Shown: positions 273 through 26,370 of the stretch, piece after piece
Layout: every line of letters starts with the position of its first letter
Numbering within the stretch: the first letter of the stretch is position 1
Assembly (NCBI GenBank): GCA_000389735.1
Contig: APJY01000001.1
Location: 647,064 to 711,063, forward strand
Source: Sulfolobales archaeon Acd1
Lineage (GTDB): Archaea > Thermoproteota > Thermoprotei_A > Sulfolobales > Sulfolobaceae
Reading direction: 5' to 3'
Length of the DNA: 64,000 nt
Notes under the pieces: model-generated
What the model was told of the DNA's origin: nothing
Database searches by the model: none
Seen by the model: the letters and a program-made list of their open reading frames with translations, nothing else
Program-made: the position numbers and the translations under genes

Positions 273-1403
273 TTAAATGACTTCCCTTACCTCGGGCTTG
301 TTGAGCAGCTCCTCGAAGGCCTTCTTTAGGTCGTTAACGTCGAAACCGAAGATTACCGGCTTCTCCCTGGTAAAGATCTCGTCCAGTTTGGTGAATATCT
401 GATCCACCGGCGTTCCCTTAAGCGAGTCCTCCAACTTCTCTACGAATCCCTTGGGTGACATGACGAAGAAGTCGCCCGAGATGGACACCTCGTCCAGCTT
501 CCTATCGACTATTTTCGCCGTGATCCTGACGAGCTTCCTGGCCTTGAAATCCAAGTGGCAGACGGCAACGTTGCCCGTTATCTTCACGCACCTCTCGGTC
601 CTGAGGTCTGGGTGTCTGTTGTCCTTATAATAGGTCCACTCCTCCCTCATCTTCTCTTCGGCTAGCTTGTTCCACAGCTCTATCTCCTCAGGAGTCAATT
701 GACTATCCTCGAACTTCACTCTGAGTTCCCTCTCGAACTCCGTCTTAAGCCTCTTCACTATCTCCTCCTCCGGAGGTACACAGCCCAACTCCCTCTTCAT
801 GGAAGTTATCCACTCGTTCATATCCTTAGCCATCTTGTCTCTGAACTTCTCAGACGGAACCCTAATGCACTTGCTCACGAAGTCCGCGTCGAAGTCCAGG
901 AGTATGTTGCCCGCGATGACAACAGCGTTGTTGTGCGTCATAGCTCCGTTGCCGCTTATCTTCCTTCCGTTAACCACGACGTCCTGATCCCTTAAGCTGG
1001 CGTTGAGTCCGTAGCTCCTGAGGACGTTCACGACCGGGGTCAAGTATTTCTTATACAGCGACACTGGGTCTGAGGGAGCCTCGTCCCTTCTGACTACGAC
1101 GAAGTAGTCGAGCTCTCCGGGCGTGATCACCACTGTGCCTCCCCCTATATCCCTCCTCACCACGGGTATCCCGTTGGCCTTGGTGAACTCCAGGTTGACC
1201 TCGAGCCATACCTCCTGATGCACTCCAACGTTAACGAAGGGTTCCCTAGCACTAAAAACCAGGAGGGTGTTCTTGCCTCCCTTGCTCACGTAATCCGCCA
1301 CAGCGACGAACGAAGTGACCATGTGATAGCCGTCCTGCGGCGGTAGCGATACGAACCTCCAGGACATTTCATATCTTCTGAAGAAAAACGAGTTTATATT
1401 CAT
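273..1403 (-). CDS. Lipoate-protein ligase, sLpl-type, next to lbpA
   Basis: Member of the LplA/LipB/BPL catalytic family, which activates lipoate or octanoate with ATP and attaches it to a lysine of an H-type or E2 protein. The lipoyl-AMP motif RRDIGGGT is at residues 83-90 and the conserved lysine lies in NGRKISGNGA (K148). The 376 residues include a C-terminal accessory-type domain (about residues 255-376), so both domains are in one chain, as in the sLpl(AB) ligases described for sHdr bacteria and archaea. It lies 57 bp downstream of lbpA on the same strand and very likely modifies that protein. The start is uncertain: ATG at 1403 gives the longest frame, but ATG at 1367 (MSWRF) fits the usual family N-terminus better. 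Confidence 0.85.
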   Translation of the reverse strand: MNINSFFFRRYEMSWRFVSLPPQDGYHMVTSFVAVADYVSKGGKNTLLVFSAREPFVNVGVHQEVWLEVNLEFTKANGIPVVRRDIGGGTVVITPGELDYFVVVRRDEAPSDPVSLYKKYLTPVVNVLRSYGLNASLRDQDVVVNGRKISGNGAMTHNNAVVIAGNILLDFDADFVSKCIRVPSEKFRDKMAKDMNEWITSMKRELGCVPPEEEIVKRLKTEFERELRVKFEDSQLTPEEIELWNKLAEEKMREEWTYYKDNRHPDLRTERCVKITGNVAVCHLDFKARKLVRITAKIVDRKLDEVSISGDFFVMSPKGFVEKLEDSLKGTPVDQIFTKLDEIFTREKPVIFGFDVNDLKKAFEELLNKPEVREVI

Positions 1404-8276: not shown

Positions 8277-9110
8277 TTACAAATCGAGCCAGCTGTCGGG
8301 CAGGTCTTCCTCCTTGAGCTCCCCATTCATCCATTTCTCCCTAATCTCCTCAAGCTGACTCTTCCTTTCTTCATATATATCGGACACCATGTCGTAAAGG
8401 TCGGGATCGACGTTCTTAATCGCGTCCATAACGCCGGACTCGAACATTATCGTCATCAGCTCCACTGCGGTCTGTAACGAAGCGTGCCAACCTATGTCCG
8501 TCCTCTGTAAGAGATCCACTGGGATAGCCTTCCTGTACACGTCCATGTTCTTAGACTCTTCGACGGCCTGGGGTCCCCAATCTGGGAAGGCCTCAGGCTG
8601 AATCATGTCAGGGGTCACCTGGTTACCAAGCGTAAGCACGGTGTAGAGGACCCTTCTGTAAGGCGCTAATATCTCCTTGGCAGAAGGTAGCGCGAACTGA
8701 ACGGCGTACTCCCTTAGTAGCATGATTAGCCCAGCTATTTCGTTGTTGAACGGACACCTCATTGAACACGTGTAGCACTGGACGCAAGCCCAGACCTTCT
8801 TATTCACGAACTCCCATATCCTGTCCACTGCGTCCCTCATCATGTACTGTATCATTTCCCTGGGCCCGTAATCGTAGAATTTAGCGGCCGGACAGCCTGA
8901 AGTACACACCCCGCAATTCAGACAACCCCTTAAGTACTCGTTAAATCTGAAGTCCGACTTAACGGCCTGCCAGAACTTCCTAGCCAGCTCCCTTTGATCG
9001 GGGGGTAAGGTGTCCAAATTCCTTTCTTCTTCAGTGAGCGCTCCCTGTTCCGGGTAGCTTAAGTCCATGTACCTCGGGTCGTCGGGCAGAGGGATCACGT
9101 TCTGCGGCAA
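8277..9110 (-). CDS. hdrC1: sHdrC1, iron-sulfur subunit C-like
   Basis: A 277-residue protein with two [4Fe-4S] ferredoxin motifs at residues 63-74 (CLNCGVCTSGCP) and 109-120 (CVQCYTCSMRCP), followed by a helical C-terminal region of about 150 residues typical of HdrC. It is the first gene of the sHdr operon. The start codon is TTG at 9110, just downstream of a TATA-like element (9141-9150) in a position giving a leader of roughly ten bases. Function is electron transfer within the complex, known from the family. Confidence 0.92.
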   Translation of the reverse strand: MPQNVIPLPDDPRYMDLSYPEQGALTEEERNLDTLPPDQRELARKFWQAVKSDFRFNEYLRGCLNCGVCTSGCPAAKFYDYGPREMIQYMMRDAVDRIWEFVNKKVWACVQCYTCSMRCPFNNEIAGLIMLLREYAVQFALPSAKEILAPYRRVLYTVLTLGNQVTPDMIQPEAFPDWGPQAVEESKNMDVYRKAIPVDLLQRTDIGWHASLQTAVELMTIMFESGVMDAIKNVDPDLYDMVSDIYEERKSQLEEIREKWMNGELKEEDLPDSWLDL

Positions 9111-10651: not shown

Positions 10652-11263
10652 TTAAGACCTTAAGGCTTTACCAATCTTCTTTAATAAGCTTATCATGGCC
10701 GTCATGGCGAACTTGACGTCAGGGTCGTTTAGGGACATTGTAATTCCCACGAGTCCCTGAGGCTTCGTCTGTGGCAGCTCCTTAGCCCACTCCTTGAGTG
10801 CCGGAGCGGTCTTAGTTATCATAGTGGATAACGCTTCGACTAAGTCCTTATCTGCCATGACGTTGGCTAGTTCGACCAACTTTTGCATGGCCCCGCTCTC
10901 CTGAAGCTTCACCAAACTGTCGAGCATCCTCACCATGCCGTCTACGTCGAGTTTCTGAAGCCTCGTGAGCACGTCCTCGCTGGTGAGCTTCTCGAGGAGG
11001 GGCCAAACGGCCTGAACCTTGGGGAGTTGGTCCATGGAGAACTCTATTATGGCGTCCACTAGCTCAGCCCTCTGAACCGCGTCGAGCAAGTCCAGGCCCT
11101 GCTGCATTAGGTTGAGTAAGTTGTCGAGCTTGCCGGACTTCTCAAGGTTAGTTAAGAGGTTGGAGAGCTTCTCGAGGGCTGGGAGGGCTTCAGCCATTTT
11201 CGCTAGCCTGGAGAGGTTGTCCTCAGAAAGCAACTTGTCTAAGTCCAGCTCTTGGGCCGCCAT
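10652..11263 (-). CDS. DUF1641 family protein
   Basis: A 203-residue, highly helical, leucine-rich protein that fits DUF1641 (COG2427), including the glycine-containing end region (PQGLVGITMSLNDPDVKFAM) typical of this family. DUF1641 proteins recur near Hdr-like and formate dehydrogenase-like genes in archaea and bacteria, but their biochemical role is not established. The gene starts with ATG and is followed 3 bp later by the YHS-like gene. Its presence here supports a link to the sHdr system. Confidence 0.8.
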   Translation of the reverse strand: MAAQELDLDKLLSEDNLSRLAKMAEALPALEKLSNLLTNLEKSGKLDNLLNLMQQGLDLLDAVQRAELVDAIIEFSMDQLPKVQAVWPLLEKLTSEDVLTRLQKLDVDGMVRMLDSLVKLQESGAMQKLVELANVMADKDLVEALSTMITKTAPALKEWAKELPQTKPQGLVGITMSLNDPDVKFAMTAMISLLKKIGKALRS

Positions 11264-12960: not shown

Positions 12961-13371
12961 TTACCTTACTACCCTTTGGCTCTCTTCCTCGAACAACTTC
13001 CGCGCTTCTTCCAATTTTTTCAGCTTACCGACGTCCACTACGCCTTTTATTTTAAGGATCCATGAGCCGTAAGGATCCTTGTTTATCAACGAGGGATCTC
13101 TGAGCACCTTTTCATTAACTTCAATCACTTCTCCCTCAACAGGAAGCCTGAACTTGCCCACCCATTTAGGGGACTCCACCGAGAAGAGCACTGACCTGGA
13201 CGTCACTTTTTCGCCAGGCTTCTTTACGGTCACTTGGAAGATCTTGCCTGCCATGTACTGACCCAACGAGGTTATTCCAACCGTTACGATGTCGCCTTCC
13301 ACCCTAATCCATACGTGTTCTTCAGGATAGTAAAGGAGGTCCTCAGGGAACTCGAAACCGTTTATGTTCAT
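12961..13371 (-). CDS. Second GcvH-like lipoate-binding protein
   Basis: A 136-residue H-protein-like domain. The modification site is ESPK (K69) in the turn FSVESPKW, framed by the expected beta strands (GITSLGQYMAGKI before, LPVEGEVIEVN after). It is closer to the LbpA of this window (MAGKI, PKW/GKW, NKDPYGSW) than to the canonical GcvH, so it is probably a second sHdr-type carrier rather than a glycine cleavage protein. Members with two LbpA proteins are known among sHdr organisms. It starts with ATG and converges on the 45-residue gene. It is divergent from the HAD-like gene, sharing a 47-bp promoter region. Confidence 0.8.
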   Translation of the reverse strand: MNINGFEFPEDLLYYPEEHVWIRVEGDIVTVGITSLGQYMAGKIFQVTVKKPGEKVTSRSVLFSVESPKWVGKFRLPVEGEVIEVNEKVLRDPSLINKDPYGSWILKIKGVVDVGKLKKLEEARKLFEEESQRVVR

Positions 13372-13418: not shown

Positions 13419-13913
13419 ATGAACTTCGCTATCTGGCTTGACGGAACGGTACTTAAGGTGGATTTGACGGACCAACTTTACGCCATATACAAGGGAGGAG
13501 AGGCGGAACTCCCCGTCGTAAAGGAGGCCTTCGAGGATTCGCTAGAGTTCCTATCCAAGGTCTCTGGGAAGCACGAGGTAGTGATACTGTCACCCTATAA
13601 TGAAGAAGTTACGGGCGAGATCATGAGGTCCATAGGCCTGAGCTTTAAATACATCGCCAACCAGGGCAGGACGAAACCGAGCAAGGACCCATACGAACAG
13701 CTGTTCTCAGCGTACAAATGGGATCCTTTGGAGACCATAACGATCGGGTCGTCCCCTCTCGACTTACTATCCGCCAGGTTCTACGACTCAAGAATAAAGG
13801 TCGTGTGCGTCGAGAGGTTCAGGGATTGCTCCAGGTACAGCCCTTTCCTATTAGTCAGGGACATGAGGGAAGCGCTGGATAGGCTGATAAGGCTGAGAAA
13901 GGTTCAGCTGTAA
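13419..13913 (+). CDS. HAD-like protein lacking catalytic residues
   Basis: A 164-residue protein with haloacid dehalogenase topology. The motif I region reads FAIWLDGTV, so Trp replaces the nucleophilic first Asp of DxDGT. The motif III lysine is present (GRTKPSKDP), and motif IV reads ITIGSSPLDLLSA, with Ser in place of the first Asp of GDxxxD. Hydrolase activity is therefore unlikely, and a binding or regulatory role is more plausible. It converges on queC with a 10-bp overlap. Confidence 0.65.
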   Translation: MNFAIWLDGTVLKVDLTDQLYAIYKGGEAELPVVKEAFEDSLEFLSKVSGKHEVVILSPYNEEVTGEIMRSIGLSFKYIANQGRTKPSKDPYEQLFSAYKWDPLETITIGSSPLDLLSARFYDSRIKVVCVERFRDCSRYSPFLLVRDMREALDRLIRLRKVQL

Positions 13914-14524
13914 TACCTCGTGGGATCACTGATACCCGCCTGCTTGAAGGCCTCCTTCCTCCTTTGACACTGGCTGCACTGCCCACAATGATACGCGTGG
14001 CCTAACAAACAGGAATAAGTGTCGCTCGGGTCGAGACCGCTCGCTATTCCTAGCCTGAGGAGCATCCACTTAGGCATTAAAGCGAAAGGGGTACTGACCT
14101 TTATCCCTATCATACTTCCGAGCTCCTTCAGCTTCGAAATCACTATTATCCTATCTTTTTCATACTCACAGTCCTCCTTAACCGACGCGATTATGACCTC
14201 GCCGTACCCTTTTTCCTTGGCGAAGGCGATTGCTATCGGCAATATCACCAGGTTCCGATGGGTAATTGGCTCATGAGGCCTGAGCCAGCCCTTTTCTACG
14301 AAGGGTACGCTCACGCCTTTTATGCGGAACACGATGAGCCTCTTCCCTAATTTATCGCATATCGTTTTGCTTGATCTCAACTGCATTCGTGCGGACCTTT
14401 GTCCGTAATCAAAGAAAACGCAGTCGAAACTCTCTCCCTTATTGGTCAAGTAAAAGGCGGCCGACGAGGAGTCGAGTCCTCCACTCATGAGCAACAAGCT
14501 CTTGGCCTTCGATGCGCCGCTCAA
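13904..14524 (-). CDS. queC: 7-cyano-7-deazaguanine synthase QueC
   Basis: A 206-residue PP-loop ATPase that converts 7-carboxy-7-deazaguanine to preQ0, the precursor of archaeosine in tRNA. The PP-loop SGGLDSS is at residues 14-20. The zinc site lies near the C-terminus (CLLGHAYHCGQCSQCQRRKEAF, cysteines spaced C-x8-C-x2-C-x2-C). Length fits the archaeal family. It is not obviously part of the sulfur island. It starts with ATG and its end overlaps the HAD-like gene. Confidence 0.88.
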   Translation of the reverse strand: MSGASKAKSLLLMSGGLDSSSAAFYLTNKGESFDCVFFDYGQRSARMQLRSSKTICDKLGKRLIVFRIKGVSVPFVEKGWLRPHEPITHRNLVILPIAIAFAKEKGYGEVIIASVKEDCEYEKDRIIVISKLKELGSMIGIKVSTPFALMPKWMLLRLGIASGLDPSDTYSCLLGHAYHCGQCSQCQRRKEAFKQAGISDPTRYYS

Positions 14525-15471: not shown

Positions 15472-16506
15472 ATGACGAGATTTCGCTTCATGGTCGAGAG
15501 GGGACCGCAGGACCTAATACTCGCCGGCGAGGAGGCCTTGCTGGAGTCGGTCAGCAGAGGTGCCGAACCTATACTGAGGTTCGTGATCTTCGACCCTCCG
15601 GCTGTGCTGATAGGCTATCATCAGGCGGTTGAACAGGAGGTGAACCTCGAGGCCGTCAAGAGGCTAGGGTGGAGCGTGGGTAGGAGACCTACGGGCGGCG
15701 GTGCCATCATAATGGGCAGAGACCAGCTGGGCTGGGAGATCTACGCCCCTTCAGAGATGCTCGGCGGGACCCCAGAGAAGGCCATAGAGAAGGGGGCTCA
15801 GGGAGTCATAGCCACCCTTAAGAAGTTGGGAATAGAAGCCAAGTTCAGGCCCAAGAACGACGTTGAGGTCGACGGGAGGAAAATATCGGGAATCGGGGCG
15901 TTCTCGATAGGGAAATTCACGGCCGTAACGGGGACTATACTGGTCGACTTCGACCCCGAGACCATGGTGTCCGTCCTGAGGCTATCGTCGGAGAAAATTA
16001 GGGACAAGTTGATCACCGACTTCAGGAGCAGGATAACGTGGGTCAACAGGGAGCTAGGAAAATCGGTAGAGATGTCACGAGTAATCGGCCTCGCGAGGGA
16101 GTCCTTCGAGGAGGTCCTAGGGGTCGACCTCGTCGACGGGACTTATACGGAATCCGAGAGGAAGCTCATAGAGGAGCTTAGGGCCAAGTACGCCTCCACC
16201 GAGTGGATACACAACCTCAGGAAGCCCCTAACGGGGGACTTGAAGTACGTGGAGAGGAAGTTCCCCGGCGGGCTAGTGAGGCTTCAAGTGAAGTTGCTTA
16301 ACCCCTCAGTGATTGAGGCCGTACTGATAACCGGCGACTTCTTCGTCGAGCCTAAGAGGGCTATACTCGACCTAGAGGCCAGGCTCAAGTGGACTAGGGT
16401 GGAGGACGTCGAGCAGGAGATAAGGGACTGGTACAAGGGGGTGAAGTTCATAGGGATTACGGCGGACGATCTGATCTCCTTGTTCAAGGAGGTGCTACTC
16501 GGATGA
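15472..16506 (+). CDS. Lipoate-protein ligase, first gene of the lipoate operon
   Basis: A 344-residue sLpl-type ligase with the RRPTGGGA motif at residues 71-78 and the catalytic-type lysine in DGRKISGIGA (K137). As in the first ligase (273-1403), the catalytic domain is followed by an accessory-type domain (about residues 225-344), including the LVRLQVKLLNP and ITGDFF segments shared by both. The two are paralogues of the same type rather than LplA plus LipM. Its stop overlaps the next gene by 4 bp (ATGA). In the described pathway the ligase loads octanoate or lipoate on LbpA before LipS1/LipS2 insert sulfur. Confidence 0.88.
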   Translation: MTRFRFMVERGPQDLILAGEEALLESVSRGAEPILRFVIFDPPAVLIGYHQAVEQEVNLEAVKRLGWSVGRRPTGGGAIIMGRDQLGWEIYAPSEMLGGTPEKAIEKGAQGVIATLKKLGIEAKFRPKNDVEVDGRKISGIGAFSIGKFTAVTGTILVDFDPETMVSVLRLSSEKIRDKLITDFRSRITWVNRELGKSVEMSRVIGLARESFEEVLGVDLVDGTYTESERKLIEELRAKYASTEWIHNLRKPLTGDLKYVERKFPGGLVRLQVKLLNPSVIEAVLITGDFFVEPKRAILDLEARLKWTRVEDVEQEIRDWYKGVKFIGITADDLISLFKEVLLG

Positions 16507-17393
16507 GACCCCTGTTCCTTTATGCCCCCAATCTCAAGAAATACGAAACGGACTTCCTCAGCTCTCGGGACGGATGGAGCGCGATATCGGTTACCGGTAC
16601 GGCCTGCGCGTTCAACTGCAAACACTGCGGGAGGGCGATCCTGCGGGGAATGACGGACGGCTCCAGCGAAGAAAGGCTGATTAAGGCGTTGGAGGCCTCT
16701 GTCAGGCGGGGCCACAAGGGGGTAATTCTCTCAGGAGGCTCGACAGCTAGAGGCGAGGTACCGATATGGAGGTTCAAAGGAGTCCTTCAGAAGTACAGGG
16801 ATTCCCTTACTTTCATCGCGCACACCGGGATCGTCAGGAGTGAGGAGATAGCGATGGAGTTCAGGGAGGCCGGGGTAAAGGTCGCCCTATTAGACATGGT
16901 CGGAGACGACGAGACCATCAAGGAGGTCCTGGGACAACCGTTCACAGTTGAGGACTACCTCAACTCGTTCAAGCTGCTCAAGAGGGCGGGACTGAAGGTG
17001 GTCCCTCACGTGATAGTGGGGCTGAGCGTTAAAGGGCTGGAGGGAGACCTCATGTCGTTAGAGCTGCTCAAGGAGGTCAGCCCAGACGCGGTCATAGTGG
17101 TCGGCCTCATGCCGCTGTCGGTGAACTTCAGCAGGCAAGCGTCGCCGGAAGGACTGATGGCTGCGCTGAAGAAGGCCAGGGACGAGTTCTCCGTCCCAGT
17201 TATGCTCGGGTGTGCCAGGCCCAGAGGGGGTGAGTACCTCAAGGTGGAGCAATTCGCCGTTGATTACGACGTGGACGGGATCGCCTTCCCTGAGGAGGAG
17301 ACCGTGGGTTACGCCCAAGGTAAAAGGCAAATCGTTTTTTCGAACGCCTGTTGTGCCAACGTGGTTTTCGACGTTCTGGGGGTGGTGGCCTGA
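16503..17393 (+). CDS. Radical SAM lipoyl synthase subunit (LipS1/LipS2 pair, first gene)
   Basis: A 296-residue radical SAM protein with the CxxxCxxC cluster site at C35, C39 and C42 (CAFNCKHC). The GG-like SAM-contact motif is LSGGS near residue 76. Additional cysteines (GCARPRGGEY and NACCANV near the C-terminus) could hold an auxiliary iron-sulfur cluster that gives up sulfur. It lies between a lipoate ligase and a BioB-like radical SAM gene, the arrangement described for the bipartite lipoyl synthase LipS1/LipS2 of archaea and sHdr bacteria. I cannot decide from sequence alone which partner is S1; published order would make this one LipS1. Overlaps the ligase by 4 bp. Confidence 0.8.
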   Translation: MRPLFLYAPNLKKYETDFLSSRDGWSAISVTGTACAFNCKHCGRAILRGMTDGSSEERLIKALEASVRRGHKGVILSGGSTARGEVPIWRFKGVLQKYRDSLTFIAHTGIVRSEEIAMEFREAGVKVALLDMVGDDETIKEVLGQPFTVEDYLNSFKLLKRAGLKVVPHVIVGLSVKGLEGDLMSLELLKEVSPDAVIVVGLMPLSVNFSRQASPEGLMAALKKARDEFSVPVMLGCARPRGGEYLKVEQFAVDYDVDGIAFPEEETVGYAQGKRQIVFSNACCANVVFDVLGVVA

Positions 17394-18455
17394 ATGCTCA
17401 GGTTGGTCAGTAGTCCAGACTGGGTGAGGTTGAGCTTCGGGGCGGATATGGTTTTAGGATTCAGTTCAGGAGTTTTTTTGAAAAATTATCTAAATACGAC
17501 GATAAACCTCCTGCAGTATTACCCAGACGGCTGTAAGGCCAACTGTGCCTACTGCGGGCAAGCGAGGGAAGTGGCTCAGGGGCCGGATTGCAAGACTCTG
17601 ATAAGGGTGGAGTGGCCGCTGAGGAGACTGGACGAGGTAATAAAGAGGATTAAGGAGAGACAGGGGGATCCTAGATACGGGCTGCAGAGGATATGCGTCG
17701 GACAACTAGCTCATCCCAGAGCGGCTGAGGACTCCATAGAGATAACGAGGAGAATAAGGGAGGCCGGGATCGATCTCTCTATCTCCGAACTGGTCACTCC
17801 AACTTACACCTTCAAGCACCACCTCATAGAGATGAAGAGGGCTGGGGGCGACATGGTCGACGTAGCCATAGACGCGGCCAGCAATAGGTTGTTCGAGGCC
17901 CTCAGAGGTAAGGCGGTGAGGAGCATGCACACTTGGGAGAGGTACATCCAGGGGATCGATGAGGCCGTTGAGGTCTTCGGTAAGGGCAACGCTGGGATAC
18001 ACCTCATTATAGGCATGGGCGAGACGGAAAAGGAGGCCGTTGACCTGATGCTTTACACCCACTCTAAGGGCGCGAAGATAACGCTGTTCGCCTTCTACCC
18101 CGAGCAGGGATCGCTCATGGAGAAAAGGAAACCTGTGCCCCTGAACGTTTACAGGAGGATTCAGCTGGCCAGGTGGCTCATAGAGAACGACCTAGTGAAG
18201 GCCGAGGACTTCACATACGACGACGAAGGTAGAATAGTAGACATAAACGTGCCCAACGACCTCACAATTGACGAAATCGCCCCAGCCTTCATGACCTCGG
18301 GTTGCCCGGGCTGCAACAGGCCTTATTCCAATGAGAGACCGACCATGGCTTTAAGGAACATCCCAGCGTACCCCACTAGGGCTATGGCGATCAAAGCCCT
18401 AAAGGAGACGAAGCTAGAAAGGGTAGTGAGGGTTATATTAAAAGATGTTAATTAA
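17394..18455 (+). CDS. Radical SAM lipoyl synthase subunit (LipS1/LipS2 pair, second gene)
   Basis: A 353-residue radical SAM protein resembling biotin synthase: the cluster site is C47, C51 and C54 (CKANCAYCGQA). A C-terminal CPGC pair (C304, C307) is followed by NRPYSNERP, a plausible auxiliary cluster and substrate-clamp region comparable in place to the end of classical LipA. It directly abuts the first radical SAM gene (TGA then ATG), so both are made together. In Thermococcus two such proteins are both needed to insert the two sulfurs into octanoyl-lysine. No classical LipA is seen in the window. Confidence 0.8.
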   Translation: MLRLVSSPDWVRLSFGADMVLGFSSGVFLKNYLNTTINLLQYYPDGCKANCAYCGQAREVAQGPDCKTLIRVEWPLRRLDEVIKRIKERQGDPRYGLQRICVGQLAHPRAAEDSIEITRRIREAGIDLSISELVTPTYTFKHHLIEMKRAGGDMVDVAIDAASNRLFEALRGKAVRSMHTWERYIQGIDEAVEVFGKGNAGIHLIIGMGETEKEAVDLMLYTHSKGAKITLFAFYPEQGSLMEKRKPVPLNVYRRIQLARWLIENDLVKAEDFTYDDEGRIVDINVPNDLTIDEIAPAFMTSGCPGCNRPYSNERPTMALRNIPAYPTRAMAIKALKETKLERVVRVILKDVN

Positions 18456-19284
18456 GAGGGGCTCACTACTCAGCTTTTTCTCCAGCGGCTTCCCCGCACA
18501 CGTCAGACTGAGGGCAATAGACCTAAGCTCGCCTGACATGATGACGTTTTACTCGCCCGTTTCCGGTGAAGTGGTATCGGTAGAGGAGTTCACCGTAGGG
18601 AGGCCCAACAGGCACGCGAGCGCCCCAAACGACTACGTCATTCTCCTCAGGATCAACGACTCAACGGTGAAGGTACTCCACGTGAAGCCTTGGGTCAGGC
18701 CGGGCGAACTAATAGAAGAGGGAAAACCCATGGGAGAGTTCGTGAGCTCACCTTACACAGCTGGGGACTTCCCCCACGCCCACCTTGAGGGGTTGAGCTT
18801 CAGGTTCAGGAGTGTGACGAACTATGTGGAAAGCAAGGTCGGCAGGGTCGTGGAGGTTGGGCGGGATTACTTTGACGTCGAGGTCTTGGACTACGCTTCG
18901 ATAGGGAGGCTCAGGGGGCTCGGGTGTTGCGGGGGCCTCCTTAACGTTACCTTCCCTTACGCGTGTTACGGAGGCATCATAGGGGGCTGGGACGGAACCC
19001 TCGAGGCTTTCGGCATAGAGCTGGGAGTTCGAGCCATAAGAGTGAGGAGGAACGTTGTGCTCTTCGAAGGGAAGAAGGGCCTATTGAGGAACTGGGAAAG
19101 CGAAGCCTCTTTTAAGGTATTAAGGAACGAGCCCGTTTGCGGAGGAAGGGCGATCTTCGAGGCCGTTTTGTCTTACGGCGGTAGGCCGCGTGTGAGGTTC
19201 TTCTCCAAGTATTCGGGCAGAGTGGGTGACAGGGTTGAGCTCACAAGGCTTGTTAGGCATTATCTGGCACGACAGGTACCTTGA
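18445..19284 (+). CDS. Protein with M23/duplicated-hybrid-motif-like domain in the lipoate operon
   Basis: A 279-residue protein without signal peptide. Residues about 35-120 follow the layout of the M23/LytM and lipoyl-like 'duplicated hybrid motif' folds: FYSPVSGEVVSVEE, DYVILLRIN, a turn with RPGELIEEGKPMGEF, and the HxH of M23 in FPHAHLEGL. The first M23 zinc ligand is not clear. The second half has cysteines in GLGCCGGLL, YACYGG and PVCGG. Translation starts 11 bp inside the second radical SAM gene, so it is firmly in the lipoate operon. It could bind or deliver a lipoyl or octanoyl carrier, or a sulfur source. No function is established to my knowledge. Confidence 0.65.
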   Translation: MLIKRGSLLSFFSSGFPAHVRLRAIDLSSPDMMTFYSPVSGEVVSVEEFTVGRPNRHASAPNDYVILLRINDSTVKVLHVKPWVRPGELIEEGKPMGEFVSSPYTAGDFPHAHLEGLSFRFRSVTNYVESKVGRVVEVGRDYFDVEVLDYASIGRLRGLGCCGGLLNVTFPYACYGGIIGGWDGTLEAFGIELGVRAIRVRRNVVLFEGKKGLLRNWESEASFKVLRNEPVCGGRAIFEAVLSYGGRPRVRFFSKYSGRVGDRVELTRLVRHYLARQVP

Positions 19285-20254
19285 GATCTCCTTCTCCCAC
19301 CCCATGATAAGGGATCTCTCCAAACGGAGGATCAGAGAGTTCATAGAGCTGGCTAGGCAAAGGCTTCAATTCCTGGAGATAAGGCCAGAACCAGCCACTG
19401 AAGAGGATCTGTTGAGGATTCACGCGAGGGAATACGTGACCAAGCTGAAGGAGGTCTCTAAACTCCCTTACGTGGGCTTCTTAGATGAGGGAGATACCGT
19501 TCATTACCCAGGAATCTTTGAGGACGTCCTTTTAGTGCTCGGAGCGACTAAAACCGCGCTAAAGTACAGCGAATTCCTCGACTACGTGTATAATCCGTTG
19601 GGCGGGTTCCACCACGCTACGTACGGCCGAGCCTTAGGCTTTTGCCCTGTAAACGACGTGGCGTTCGGGGCCCTGGAGCTTCTCAGGAGGGGAGCCAAGG
19701 TCGCGATCGTTGACGTTGATGCCCACCACGGCAATGGGCTTGTCGATTACCTTTACGATAAGCCGGTGCTTAAGATAAACGTCTTCGCTTACGACGGACG
19801 CTTCTTTCCAGGTACAGGTAAACCCGAGGAGAGGGGAATCGGGGAAGGTAAAGGCTTCAACTATAACGTAGGCCTGCCCTTGGGCTCAGGAGACGACGCC
19901 TTCGAGGTCGCCCTGAGCCTGCTCCAAAAGGTCGAGGAGTTCGATCCCACTCACGTAATAGTGGTGGCGGGAGTGGACGGTCATAAGGACGATGAGCTCA
20001 AGTCGCTGAACCTCACCTGCAACTCGTATAACCTGCTGGGCCTTAAGGTGGCCAGGCTTAGCAGATTAACAGGGGCCAAGGTAATAGGCTATGGGGGAGG
20101 AGGTTACGGGAGAATGTCCGCTGAGTGTATGGTCGCCTTCCTGGAGGGGCTGAAAGGGATCAGGAACAGGACCGAAACCCCCACAGAGACGAGCAAGGAA
20201 ATCATGGATAAGGTGAAGGGTCTGGTTGAACTGTTCTCCAAAGGCCTTATTTAA
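19226..20254 (+). CDS. Histone deacetylase/acetoin-utilisation family Zn amidohydrolase
   Basis: A protein of up to 342 residues with a complete class I/II HDAC-type active site. It has the HH pair in GGFHHATYGRALGFC, zinc ligands in VDVDAHHGNG (Asp and His) and VDGHKDDEL (Asp), and the catalytic-Tyr loop YGGGGYGRM. These enzymes cleave acyl-amide bonds on lysine or polyamines. The start is uncertain: GTG 19226, TTG 19235 or TTG 19250 are all inside the upstream gene, and the strand beginning IIWHDRY marks the domain start. It is the last gene of the lipoate operon, which makes an acyl- or lipoyl-lysine substrate worth testing. It ends 8 bp inside lpd on the other strand. Confidence 0.8.
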   Translation: MTGLSSQGLLGIIWHDRYLEISFSHPMIRDLSKRRIREFIELARQRLQFLEIRPEPATEEDLLRIHAREYVTKLKEVSKLPYVGFLDEGDTVHYPGIFEDVLLVLGATKTALKYSEFLDYVYNPLGGFHHATYGRALGFCPVNDVAFGALELLRRGAKVAIVDVDAHHGNGLVDYLYDKPVLKINVFAYDGRFFPGTGKPEERGIGEGKGFNYNVGLPLGSGDDAFEVALSLLQKVEEFDPTHVIVVAGVDGHKDDELKSLNLTCNSYNLLGLKVARLSRLTGAKVIGYGGGGYGRMSAECMVAFLEGLKGIRNRTETPTETSKEIMDKVKGLVELFSKGLI

Positions 20255-24235: not shown

Positions 24236-25282
24236 TTGACAGGCTCAGGAATAGTCGGATGGGGGACATACGCCCCCAAACCGAGAGTTAGGGTCTCAGA
24301 GATCGCCAACATTTGGGGCTTCGAATTAAGGGTTCCAACGGCATTAGGCCTCGAAGAGAAGGCAGTCCCTGAGCCCGACGAGGACAGCACAACCATCGCG
24401 TGGGAAGCTACTAGAAACGCGTTCAAAAGGGCTGGAGTAGACCCCTCAGAAATCGGGCTCGTGCTGTTCGGCTCTGAGTCTAAAGTTTACGCGGTTAAAC
24501 CGACTTCGACCATTCTCCTTGACGCTTTCGGTATATCCTCCAAATCTTTAACTGTCGACTTGGAATTCGCCTGCAGGGCGGCTTCAGCCGGATTAAGGCT
24601 GGCGTCGTCGATGGTGGAAGCCGGTCGCGTCAAGTACGCTTTAGTGGTAGGGGCTGACGTCGCTCAGTCCAACCCTGGCGACGTGCTCGAACTGTCCTCT
24701 GGCGCGGGCGGTTCCGCGTTCGTGATAGGTCCCTCAAACGAGTCCGCAGCGGTAATCGAGGACTCCTTCTCCTTCACGACGGACACCCCTGACTTTTGGA
24801 GGAGGGACGGAATGCCTTATCCCCTACACGGCGAAGGCTTTACGGGGGAACCAGCGTACTTCTACCACATAGAGAACGCGGTCAGAGGGCTCCTGGAAAA
24901 GGGGTATAAGCTCTCGGACTTCAATTACTTCGTCTTCCACCAGCCTAACGGGAAGTTCCCCTTTCAGATGGCGAAGAAGCTTGGCATACCTGAGGACAAG
25001 GTGAAGCCGGGGATCGTGGTGAACCGTATAGGCAACCCATACAACGCTTCCGCCCTTATGGGCCTGGCGAAGGTGCTGGATATAGCTAAGCCAGGTGACC
25101 TCATCCTAGTCGCTCCTTTCGGTAGCGGAGCAGGAAGCGACGCTTACGCGATCAGAGCTACGGAGCTCGTAGAGGAGAAGAGGAAACTCGCGCCGACCAC
25201 TGAATACTACCTCAGCCTCAAGAAGCTGGTGGGCTATTCGTATTACAGCAAGAACGCGAACAGGCTGAAGGTGTACGAGTGA
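24236..25282 (+). CDS. Hydroxymethylglutaryl-CoA synthase
   Basis: A 348-residue archaeal HMG-CoA synthase of the mevalonate pathway for isoprenoid lipids, condensing acetyl-CoA and acetoacetyl-CoA. Visible active-site residues are E81 (GSESKV), the nucleophile C113 in DLEFACRAA, and the His in FVFHQPNG. The TTG start at 24236 gives the expected N-terminus ([10 protein letters not shown]). Its stop overlaps the next ATG (TGATG). In methanogens this enzyme forms one complex with a thiolase and a DUF35 protein, encoded side by side as here. Confidence 0.92.
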
Positions 25283-26370
25283 TGGTCGTTATAGTAGGGG
25301 CTTCAATTGTTCCGATTAATAGGTACTATGAAAGCTCGGCCGAGGACTTAGCCTTCGAGGCTTATAAGGGCTTAACAGGTGAGTTGAAGGACAGGCCGAA
25401 GGCCGACGTAGTGGTTATTTCCTCCACTTACGCTGAGCTCTCAACCAACTCCGTAAACTTAGCCAACAAGATAGCGAGTTATTTAGGGCATCAAGGTTCG
25501 GCCGTCATGAGGGTAGAGGCGGGAGAGTCCGGAGGCCCCGCGGTTTACACAGCCTTCTCCCTCATTAAATCAGGGATAGCTGACAGCGTGCTTCTTATCG
25601 GCGTTGAGAAAATGGCGGATCAGCACGGCAAGACTATCCAGGAGTATACGGCGAGGGGGCTGAACTACAAGGATTACCTGGCCGGAATTATGCCCGTTCA
25701 TTACGCCGCTCTGATGATGAAGAAGTACATGGAGGTCTACAAAGTGGACTACGACTACTTCGTTAACTGGCCCGTTAAGATGCACAGCTACGCCGTCGAG
25801 AACCCTATGGCCATGCTGAAGTTCAAGGTAACGCCGCAACAGGTCAAAGACTCCTCAGTCATATCGGAACCAATAAGGCTCTATGACACGGGAGCGAGGG
25901 GAGACGGAGCGGCTGTGGTACTCCTAACCAGCGAGGAAGTGGCGAGAAAGTACTCGGATGACCTAGCCAAGCTGCAATCGGTGAAGGGCTCCTCGAGTGA
26001 CCTGGAGGTCAGTACTTCAGCCATGGCTGTTAGGGATCTTGCCCTCAAACTGGGCGATTCCGTAAGGGACTATTACGTACAAGTTCACGACTCGTACAGC
26101 GTGGCTGCGGCCATCCAGCTCGAAGATTTAGGTTTGCTACCCAGGGGCAGGTCTTTAACTGAGCTTGACTCCGTCGAGGTGAACTTGGAAGGTGGACTGA
26201 AGGCGAGAGGTTATCCAGGCGGGGCGACAGCTGTTTATCAGCTCGCTGAGATCTACTTACAGCTCACTCAGAAGTTCAAGGGCAGGACTACGTCGAAGGA
26301 AAAGGCACTAATGATTAGTACCGACGACCTGATGACCGTGGCTTACGGCGCGAAGGTGATTAGGGAATGA
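25282..26370 (+). CDS. Thiolase-fold protein of the HMG-CoA synthase operon, catalytic residues missing
   Basis: A 362-residue thiolase-superfamily protein. Where archaeal thiolases have the nucleophile (VEAACASGG), this one reads VEAGESGGP without cysteine. The GHP motif is GYPGGATA (His to Tyr), the HDCF motif is HDSYS, and no CxG cysteine is found near the C-terminus. It therefore looks unable to make acetoacetyl-CoA and may serve as a structural partner in the complex with HMG-CoA synthase and DUF35. ATG at 25282 overlaps the upstream stop, and a GTG just before it is in frame. Annotation as acetyl-CoA acetyltransferase would be tempting but is not supported by the residues. Confidence 0.8.
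   Translation: MVVIVGASIVPINRYYESSAEDLAFEAYKGLTGELKDRPKADVVVISSTYAELSTNSVNLANKIASYLGHQGSAVMRVEAGESGGPAVYTAFSLIKSGIADSVLLIGVEKMADQHGKTIQEYTARGLNYKDYLAGIMPVHYAALMMKKYMEVYKVDYDYFVNWPVKMHSYAVENPMAMLKFKVTPQQVKDSSVISEPIRLYDTGARGDGAAVVLLTSEEVARKYSDDLAKLQSVKGSSSDLEVSTSAMAVRDLALKLGDSVRDYYVQVHDSYSVAAAIQLEDLGLLPRGRSLTELDSVEVNLEGGLKARGYPGGATAVYQLAEIYLQLTQKFKGRTTSKEKALMISTDDLMTVAYGAKVIRE

Follow-up and report, generated by a model that had tools for sequence, protein, structure and literature searches.

Five consecutive genes, all on the + strand and either overlapping or directly abutting, lie in the window (the whole 64,000-nucleotide stretch of DNA that was analysed), and a gene for a lipoate-binding carrier is found upstream of them on the opposite strand:

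12961..13371, − strand: LbpA1, lipoate-binding carrier and proposed substrate (GCV_H, 1.5e-31; ESPK acceptor motif at residue 66)
15472..16506, + strand: Lpl, lipoate/octanoate:protein ligase of the sLpl type (PF21948, LplA-B_cat, 2.2e-42)
16503..17393, + strand: LipS1-like radical SAM lipoyl synthase component (NF053742, 5.4e-55; CxxxCxxC)
17394..18455, + strand: LipS2-like radical SAM lipoyl synthase component (NF053743, 2.2e-69; CxxxCxxC)
18445..19284, + strand: ORF4, M23-like metallohydrolase-type protein (invariant residues, gene order, model)
19235..20254, + strand: HDAC-L, HDAC-family Zn deacylase-type protein (PF00850, 4.2e-57; invariant catalytic residues; own clade)

From Lpl through LipS1, LipS2 and ORF4 to HDAC-L, the intergenic spacings are −4, 0, −11 and −59 bp. 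The last value applies to the annotated HDAC-L start, GTG 19226, and becomes −50 or −35 bp if the start is TTG 19235 or TTG 19250, the two codons that match the starts of relatives. The coordinates, the spacings and the matches to family profiles confirm the tightly packed five-gene lipoate operon that a first-pass annotation of the sequence had described. An orthologue of Lpl (62–67% identity) occupies the same place in 8 other Sulfolobaceae genomes that were checked. The radical SAM CxxxCxxC motif is at residue 35 in LipS1 and residue 47 in LipS2, and both proteins score under the equivalog cut-offs of their families (LipS1, 186.9 bits against a cut-off of 230 for NF053742; LipS2, 234.1 bits against 270 for NF053743). 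LipS2 is 71–81% identical across Sulfolobaceae, and the copies in all Sulfolobaceae operons score under the NCBIfam equivalog cut-off, so this LipS2 branch is divergent.

In a search of 147 genomes of the order, full-length ORF4 homologues were confined to Sulfolobaceae, being present in 21 of the 22 genomes of the family, and ORF4 lies immediately after LipS2, with LipS1 upstream of LipS2, in every genome that has an operon-type LipS2 (21/21). Identity among these ORF4 proteins is 46–59%; gene order kept in 21 genomes at this divergence indicates that the linkage is not due to chance, and conservation on this scale rejects the idea that the operon is an oddity of one organism. A tree of 54 HDAC-family proteins from the 22 Sulfolobaceae genomes contains three well separated clades, of which HDAC-L forms one, with 19 members. 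Sixteen of the 19 genes directly follow ORF4 and the other three (in G011, G059 and G072) are elsewhere within the sHdr island, where they adjoin TusA, DUF1641, thioredoxin-like and DLD genes; among the 19 members in the 22 genomes, none was found outside a lip/sHdr neighbourhood. Two genomes of a single genus (G032 and G042) have an otherwise complete operon without HDAC-L, which is therefore not indispensable, and Sulfolobus acidocaldarius seems to have no HDAC-L. These counts come from one family and are not independent samples; within it, the co-occurrence that the first-pass annotation had proposed to check is borne out for the ORF4 clade, which always adjoins LipS2, and the HDAC-L clade is not located mainly away from lipS genes, the outcome named there as adverse. 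The HDAC-type Zn deacylase that had been noticed in a lipS operon is thus, like the M23-like ORF4, a stable member of the LipS1/LipS2/Lpl operon.

HDAC-L matches PF00850 (Hist_deacetyl) at 194.2 bits, against a curated cut-off of 27.9. All of the motifs first reported for it are present, namely (numbering residues from the TTG 19250 start) the HH pair H121/H122, the DxH motif D157/H159, the third Zn-ligand Asp D243 and GGGGY with Y286. These residues are invariant in 19/19 HDAC-L proteins, as are the tunnel Phe residues F131/F186 and the rim Asp D82, which we take to correspond to the position of HDAC8 D101. The gate position is Leu in 19/19, as in HDAC6 CD2, whereas polyamine deacetylases have Glu; a role as a polyamine deacetylase was therefore rejected, the Glu expected at that position being HDAC10 E274 (PMC10622836). 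Bacterial sub-cluster 1b deacylases and HDAC6 are among the solved structures nearest to HDAC-L in both sequence and fold; one of these nearest structures, RwDmhA (9gkw), has octanoic acid in the tunnel of its crystal (PMC11532494). HDAC6 is inhibited by bound (R)-dihydrolipoic acid (PMC10622836), and human HDAC11 is reported to hydrolyse lipoyl-lysine (as cited in PMC10622836); together, these three cases provide precedent for lipoyl or octanoyl deacylation in the HDAC family. The HDAC-L sequence would suit lipoyl- or octanoyl-lysine and acetyl-lysine alike, and the Leu gate argues only against polyamine deacetylation.

ORF4 matches no profile in Pfam or NCBIfam searches. Its HAHLE motif, noticed in the first reading, is real and corresponds to an M23-type HxH (H111-A-H113-L-E115). 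An alignment with distant Thermoproteota homologues (16 diverse sequences) has only 16 invariant columns, which include H19, D26, K76, D63, H79, H111, H113 and E115. Among these is a full M23 set consisting of H19-(x)6-D26, H79 at 32 residues before the HxH, and H111-A-H113; M23 enzymes are defined by H(x)nD, a His ~30 residues before HxH, and HxH itself (PMC9662197). Nine of 10 distant homologues match PF01551 at E-values of 1e-5 to 0.02, under the curated cut-off, and ORF4 itself has no match to it; a profile search of solved sequences gave a LECT2 match for ORF4 at E 0.017. M23/LytM structures are the best matches to a predicted model (pLDDT 71, built from just four sequences), with E-values from 1.4e-3 and none past 0.001. 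No signal or membrane-like segment was found in the ORF4 sequence, at variance with the extracellular cleavage of peptidoglycan by M23 enzymes, and to our knowledge Sulfolobales have no peptidoglycan. The several Cys residues that had led to the suggestion of a sulfur donor are present and are not conserved, being replaced in several family members; that role is unsupported and was rejected. With variable Cys and an invariant M23-type metal and catalytic set, ORF4 looks more like a second metallohydrolase, and the fully invariant set also makes it unlikely that ORF4 is an inactive scaffold mimicking a lipoyl domain. On these sequence grounds we conclude that ORF4 probably acts as an M23 metallohydrolase, though it scores under Pfam membership. 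A conserved operon carrying two intact zinc-hydrolase-type genes suggests that the lipoate arm is not only made but also removable or proof-readable.

The lipoate module is linked to LbpA and sHdr genes: LbpA1 lies ~2.1 kb upstream of the operon, and the island also contains genes for an HdrC1-like protein (8277-9110), TusA, DsrE and DLD. A second lipoate ligase adjoins a second lipoate-binding protein, LbpA2 (window 273-1403 and 1461-1907, both on the − strand), so that one island holds two carriers and two ligases. A QueC-like protein (window 13904-14524, −) is also encoded in the sHdr islands of further genera (L111, L124, L125). The DUF1641 protein beside the sHdr genes (window 10652-11263, −) is 203 aa long, that of Metallosphaera javensis (L113 8778-10031) is 417 aa with extra internal repeats, and in several relatives a DUF1641 gene lies beside HDAC-L. 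Most Sulfolobaceae genera have a second LipS2-LipS1-ligase set elsewhere in the genome, ~30% identical to the window set, and others (g4, g5 and G125) have LipA. One such unlinked set, at L092 7978-10457 (G000 contig C3), is ~30% identical and is probably a general lipoyl synthase (LipS1b/S2b). The operon is not the cell's only lipoyl synthase, as LipA or a LipS1b/S2b set was found elsewhere in the genomes checked; with the general synthases located elsewhere, the window operon looks dedicated to LbpA1, as an extra lipoylation system tied to that carrier. This fits what is known of sLpl ligases, which are specific for sHdr carriers (PMC10332631, PMC6067878).

One genome of the family, G125, the sole sampled member of its genus, has retained the sHdr core (its HdrC1-like protein is 78% identical) and is without operon-type LipS2, ORF4, HDAC-L and, on grounds of identity and position, an LbpA1-type carrier. 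A match to LbpA1 of at least 56% identity is present in 21 of 22 genomes; the best match in G125, a lipoate-binding protein at 51%, lies beside another ligase, its own, and the genome has LipA instead. LipS2, ORF4, HDAC-L and LbpA1 thus travel together and are separable from sHdr itself, in what is one event only. The missing carrier of G125 would fit Sulfodiicoccus acidiphilus, a species reported to have lost two genes for lipoate-binding proteins (PMC11323534).

Beyond the family, a sample of 398 genomes of the phylum contains distant ORF4 homologues in 18 genomes outside Sulfolobaceae. In one of these (G318, locus L201) the homologue is within a tight LipS2-Lpl-ORF4-LipS1 operon which, belonging to a separate archaeal lineage, is independent support for a lipoate role of ORF4; at two further loci (L203, L207) the homologue is ~1–4 kb from a ligase. 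Distant homologues in three other families (L204, L205, L206, L208) lie, in divergent orientation, beside thiolase and HMG-CoA synthase genes, so the wider ORF4 family is not lipoate-specific. In the window, too, HMG-CoA synthase/thiolase-like genes (24236-26370) lie within a few kb of ORF4. Counted by genome, ORF4 and LipS2 co-occur outside Sulfolobaceae (11/18 vs. 55/360, p 2.5e-5); counted by family, the association is weak (p 0.06) and is therefore not taken as proof. Neither HDAC nor ORF4 is present near sHdr-type LipS2 at eight loci outside Sulfolobaceae (L193-L200), so the five-gene form looks like an elaboration of that family.

The reading that we favour, tentatively and at somewhat less than an even chance, is that the operon is a lipoylation module of LbpA1 with built-in deacylation by HDAC-L and a second metallohydrolase, ORF4. 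By homology to characterised systems, Lpl would load the lysine of LbpA1 with octanoate (or lipoate), and the two sulfur atoms would be added by LipS2 and LipS1. HDAC-L, a putative Zn lysine deacylase, would hydrolyse the acyl-lysine amide on the carrier; it might thereby clear dead-end carriers that bear octanoyl or half-thiolated (mercaptooctanoyl) groups or, alternatively, free lipoate that could be ligated anew to another carrier, LbpA2 for example, and ORF4 may be a second hydrolase, of the M23 type, in the same pathway. That incomplete carriers arise is plausible: in E. coli, expressed LipS1/S2 stalled and left mercaptooctanoyl-LbpA (PMC10332631). That carrier deacylation is a reversible switch is a more speculative version of this reading. 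The most far-reaching proposal, a lipoylation cycle with its own eraser, in which HDAC-L would be the first prokaryotic HDAC-family delipoylase and, with the M23-type hydrolase, would edit or switch off the LbpA arm and so control archaeal sulfur oxidation, we regard as unlikely. Counting against LbpA1 deacylation, the canonical HDAC-L active site is also compatible with plain acetyl-lysine, and the strong linkage is all within one family.

The main rival casts HDAC-L as a deacetylase of acetyl-lysine in proteins, one that keeps acetyl groups off the acceptor lysine of LbpA or an active-site lysine of Lpl and removes no lipoyl. Most classical HDAC-family enzymes are deacetylases, and AcuC with acetyl-CoA synthetase is a comparison case for a deacetylase serving Lpl or LbpA. 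Such a role would agree with the canonical tunnel residues and rim Asp, with the HDAC6 CD2-like gate and with the adenylate-forming ligase in the module; however, no acetyltransferase gene was recognised adjoining HDAC-L, the genome already has two other HDAC clades, and HDAC-L linkage tracks the carrier and LipS2, not a general acetylation gene. We consider this rival rather doubtful. It is improbable that HDAC-L and/or ORF4 instead feed the ligase with octanoate or lipoate cleaved from small amides or from protein breakdown products: in archaea lacking ACP, the ligase is thought to take only free octanoate or lipoate (PMC10332631), and RwDmhA, among the nearest solved structures, is an HDAC-family small-molecule amidohydrolase, but no donor amide is known and the invariant D82 at the rim is a better fit to a peptide backbone than to a small molecule. 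There is likewise little probability that the hydrolases have no role in lipoylation, being genes for housekeeping or for chromatin/protein turnover that came into the sHdr island by drift and were kept by co-transcription, a reading that accords with the restriction of strong linkage to one family, with the two operons that are missing HDAC-L and with the copurification with chromatin proteins of a Saccharolobus HDAC homologue, possibly of another clade (PMC12796447), and is opposed by HDAC-L genes that remain in the sHdr island when outside the operon, by the joint absence of both genes with LbpA1 and LipS2 in G125 and by the ORF4 homologue in the independent L201 operon.

If a dedicated eraser or proof-reader is indeed encoded in the synthesis operon, lipoylation of the sulfur carrier would be a modification that can be controlled or edited. 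It would also explain what becomes of carriers left incomplete at the octanoyl or mercaptooctanoyl stage, and would assign a function to each of two uncharacterised genes that almost all of the Sulfolobaceae examined retain, cultivated Metallosphaera included.

Lipoate assembly by sLpl(AB)-LipS1/LipS2 is established in sHdr sulfur oxidisers (PMC6067878, PMC10332631), and the window operon shares with that system a ligase, LipS1 and LipS2 encoded close to LbpA and sHdr genes. Where the bacterial clusters have lipT, the window operon has HDAC-family and M23-like genes. The 2023 paper on that system makes no mention of a deacetylase, deacylase, amidohydrolase or amidase, and the 2018 paper none of a deacetylase; neither HDAC nor ORF4 is described in bacterial lipS clusters in these published accounts, and no description of an HDAC-L/ORF4 pair in a lipoate operon was found in the freely readable literature, supplements apart. 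Delipoylating enzymes in the literature found are sirtuins, Enterococcus Lpa and human HDAC11, none of them archaeal. Only the proposed reaction, removal of lipoyl from lysine, is common to HDAC-L and the known lipoamidases CobB/SIRT4 and Lpa (PMC5596343, PMC2753649), which belong to unrelated families (NAD-dependent sirtuins, and Lpa with an amidase domain). ORF4 shares with the M23 metallopeptidases LytM and LECT2 the H(x)nD motif, the spaced His and the HxH (PMC9662197) and, going by the predicted model, may share their fold; it differs from them in being cytosolic by sequence, in coming from a wall-less archaeon, in scoring below the Pfam cut-off and in having an extra C-terminal half of ~160 residues. 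HDAC-L shares its fold and all of its Zn and catalytic residues with the classical Zn deacylases (HDAC6, HDAC11 and sub-cluster 1b HdaH/DmhA; PMC11532494), and is distinguished from them as a Sulfolobaceae-specific clade tied to lipoate genes.
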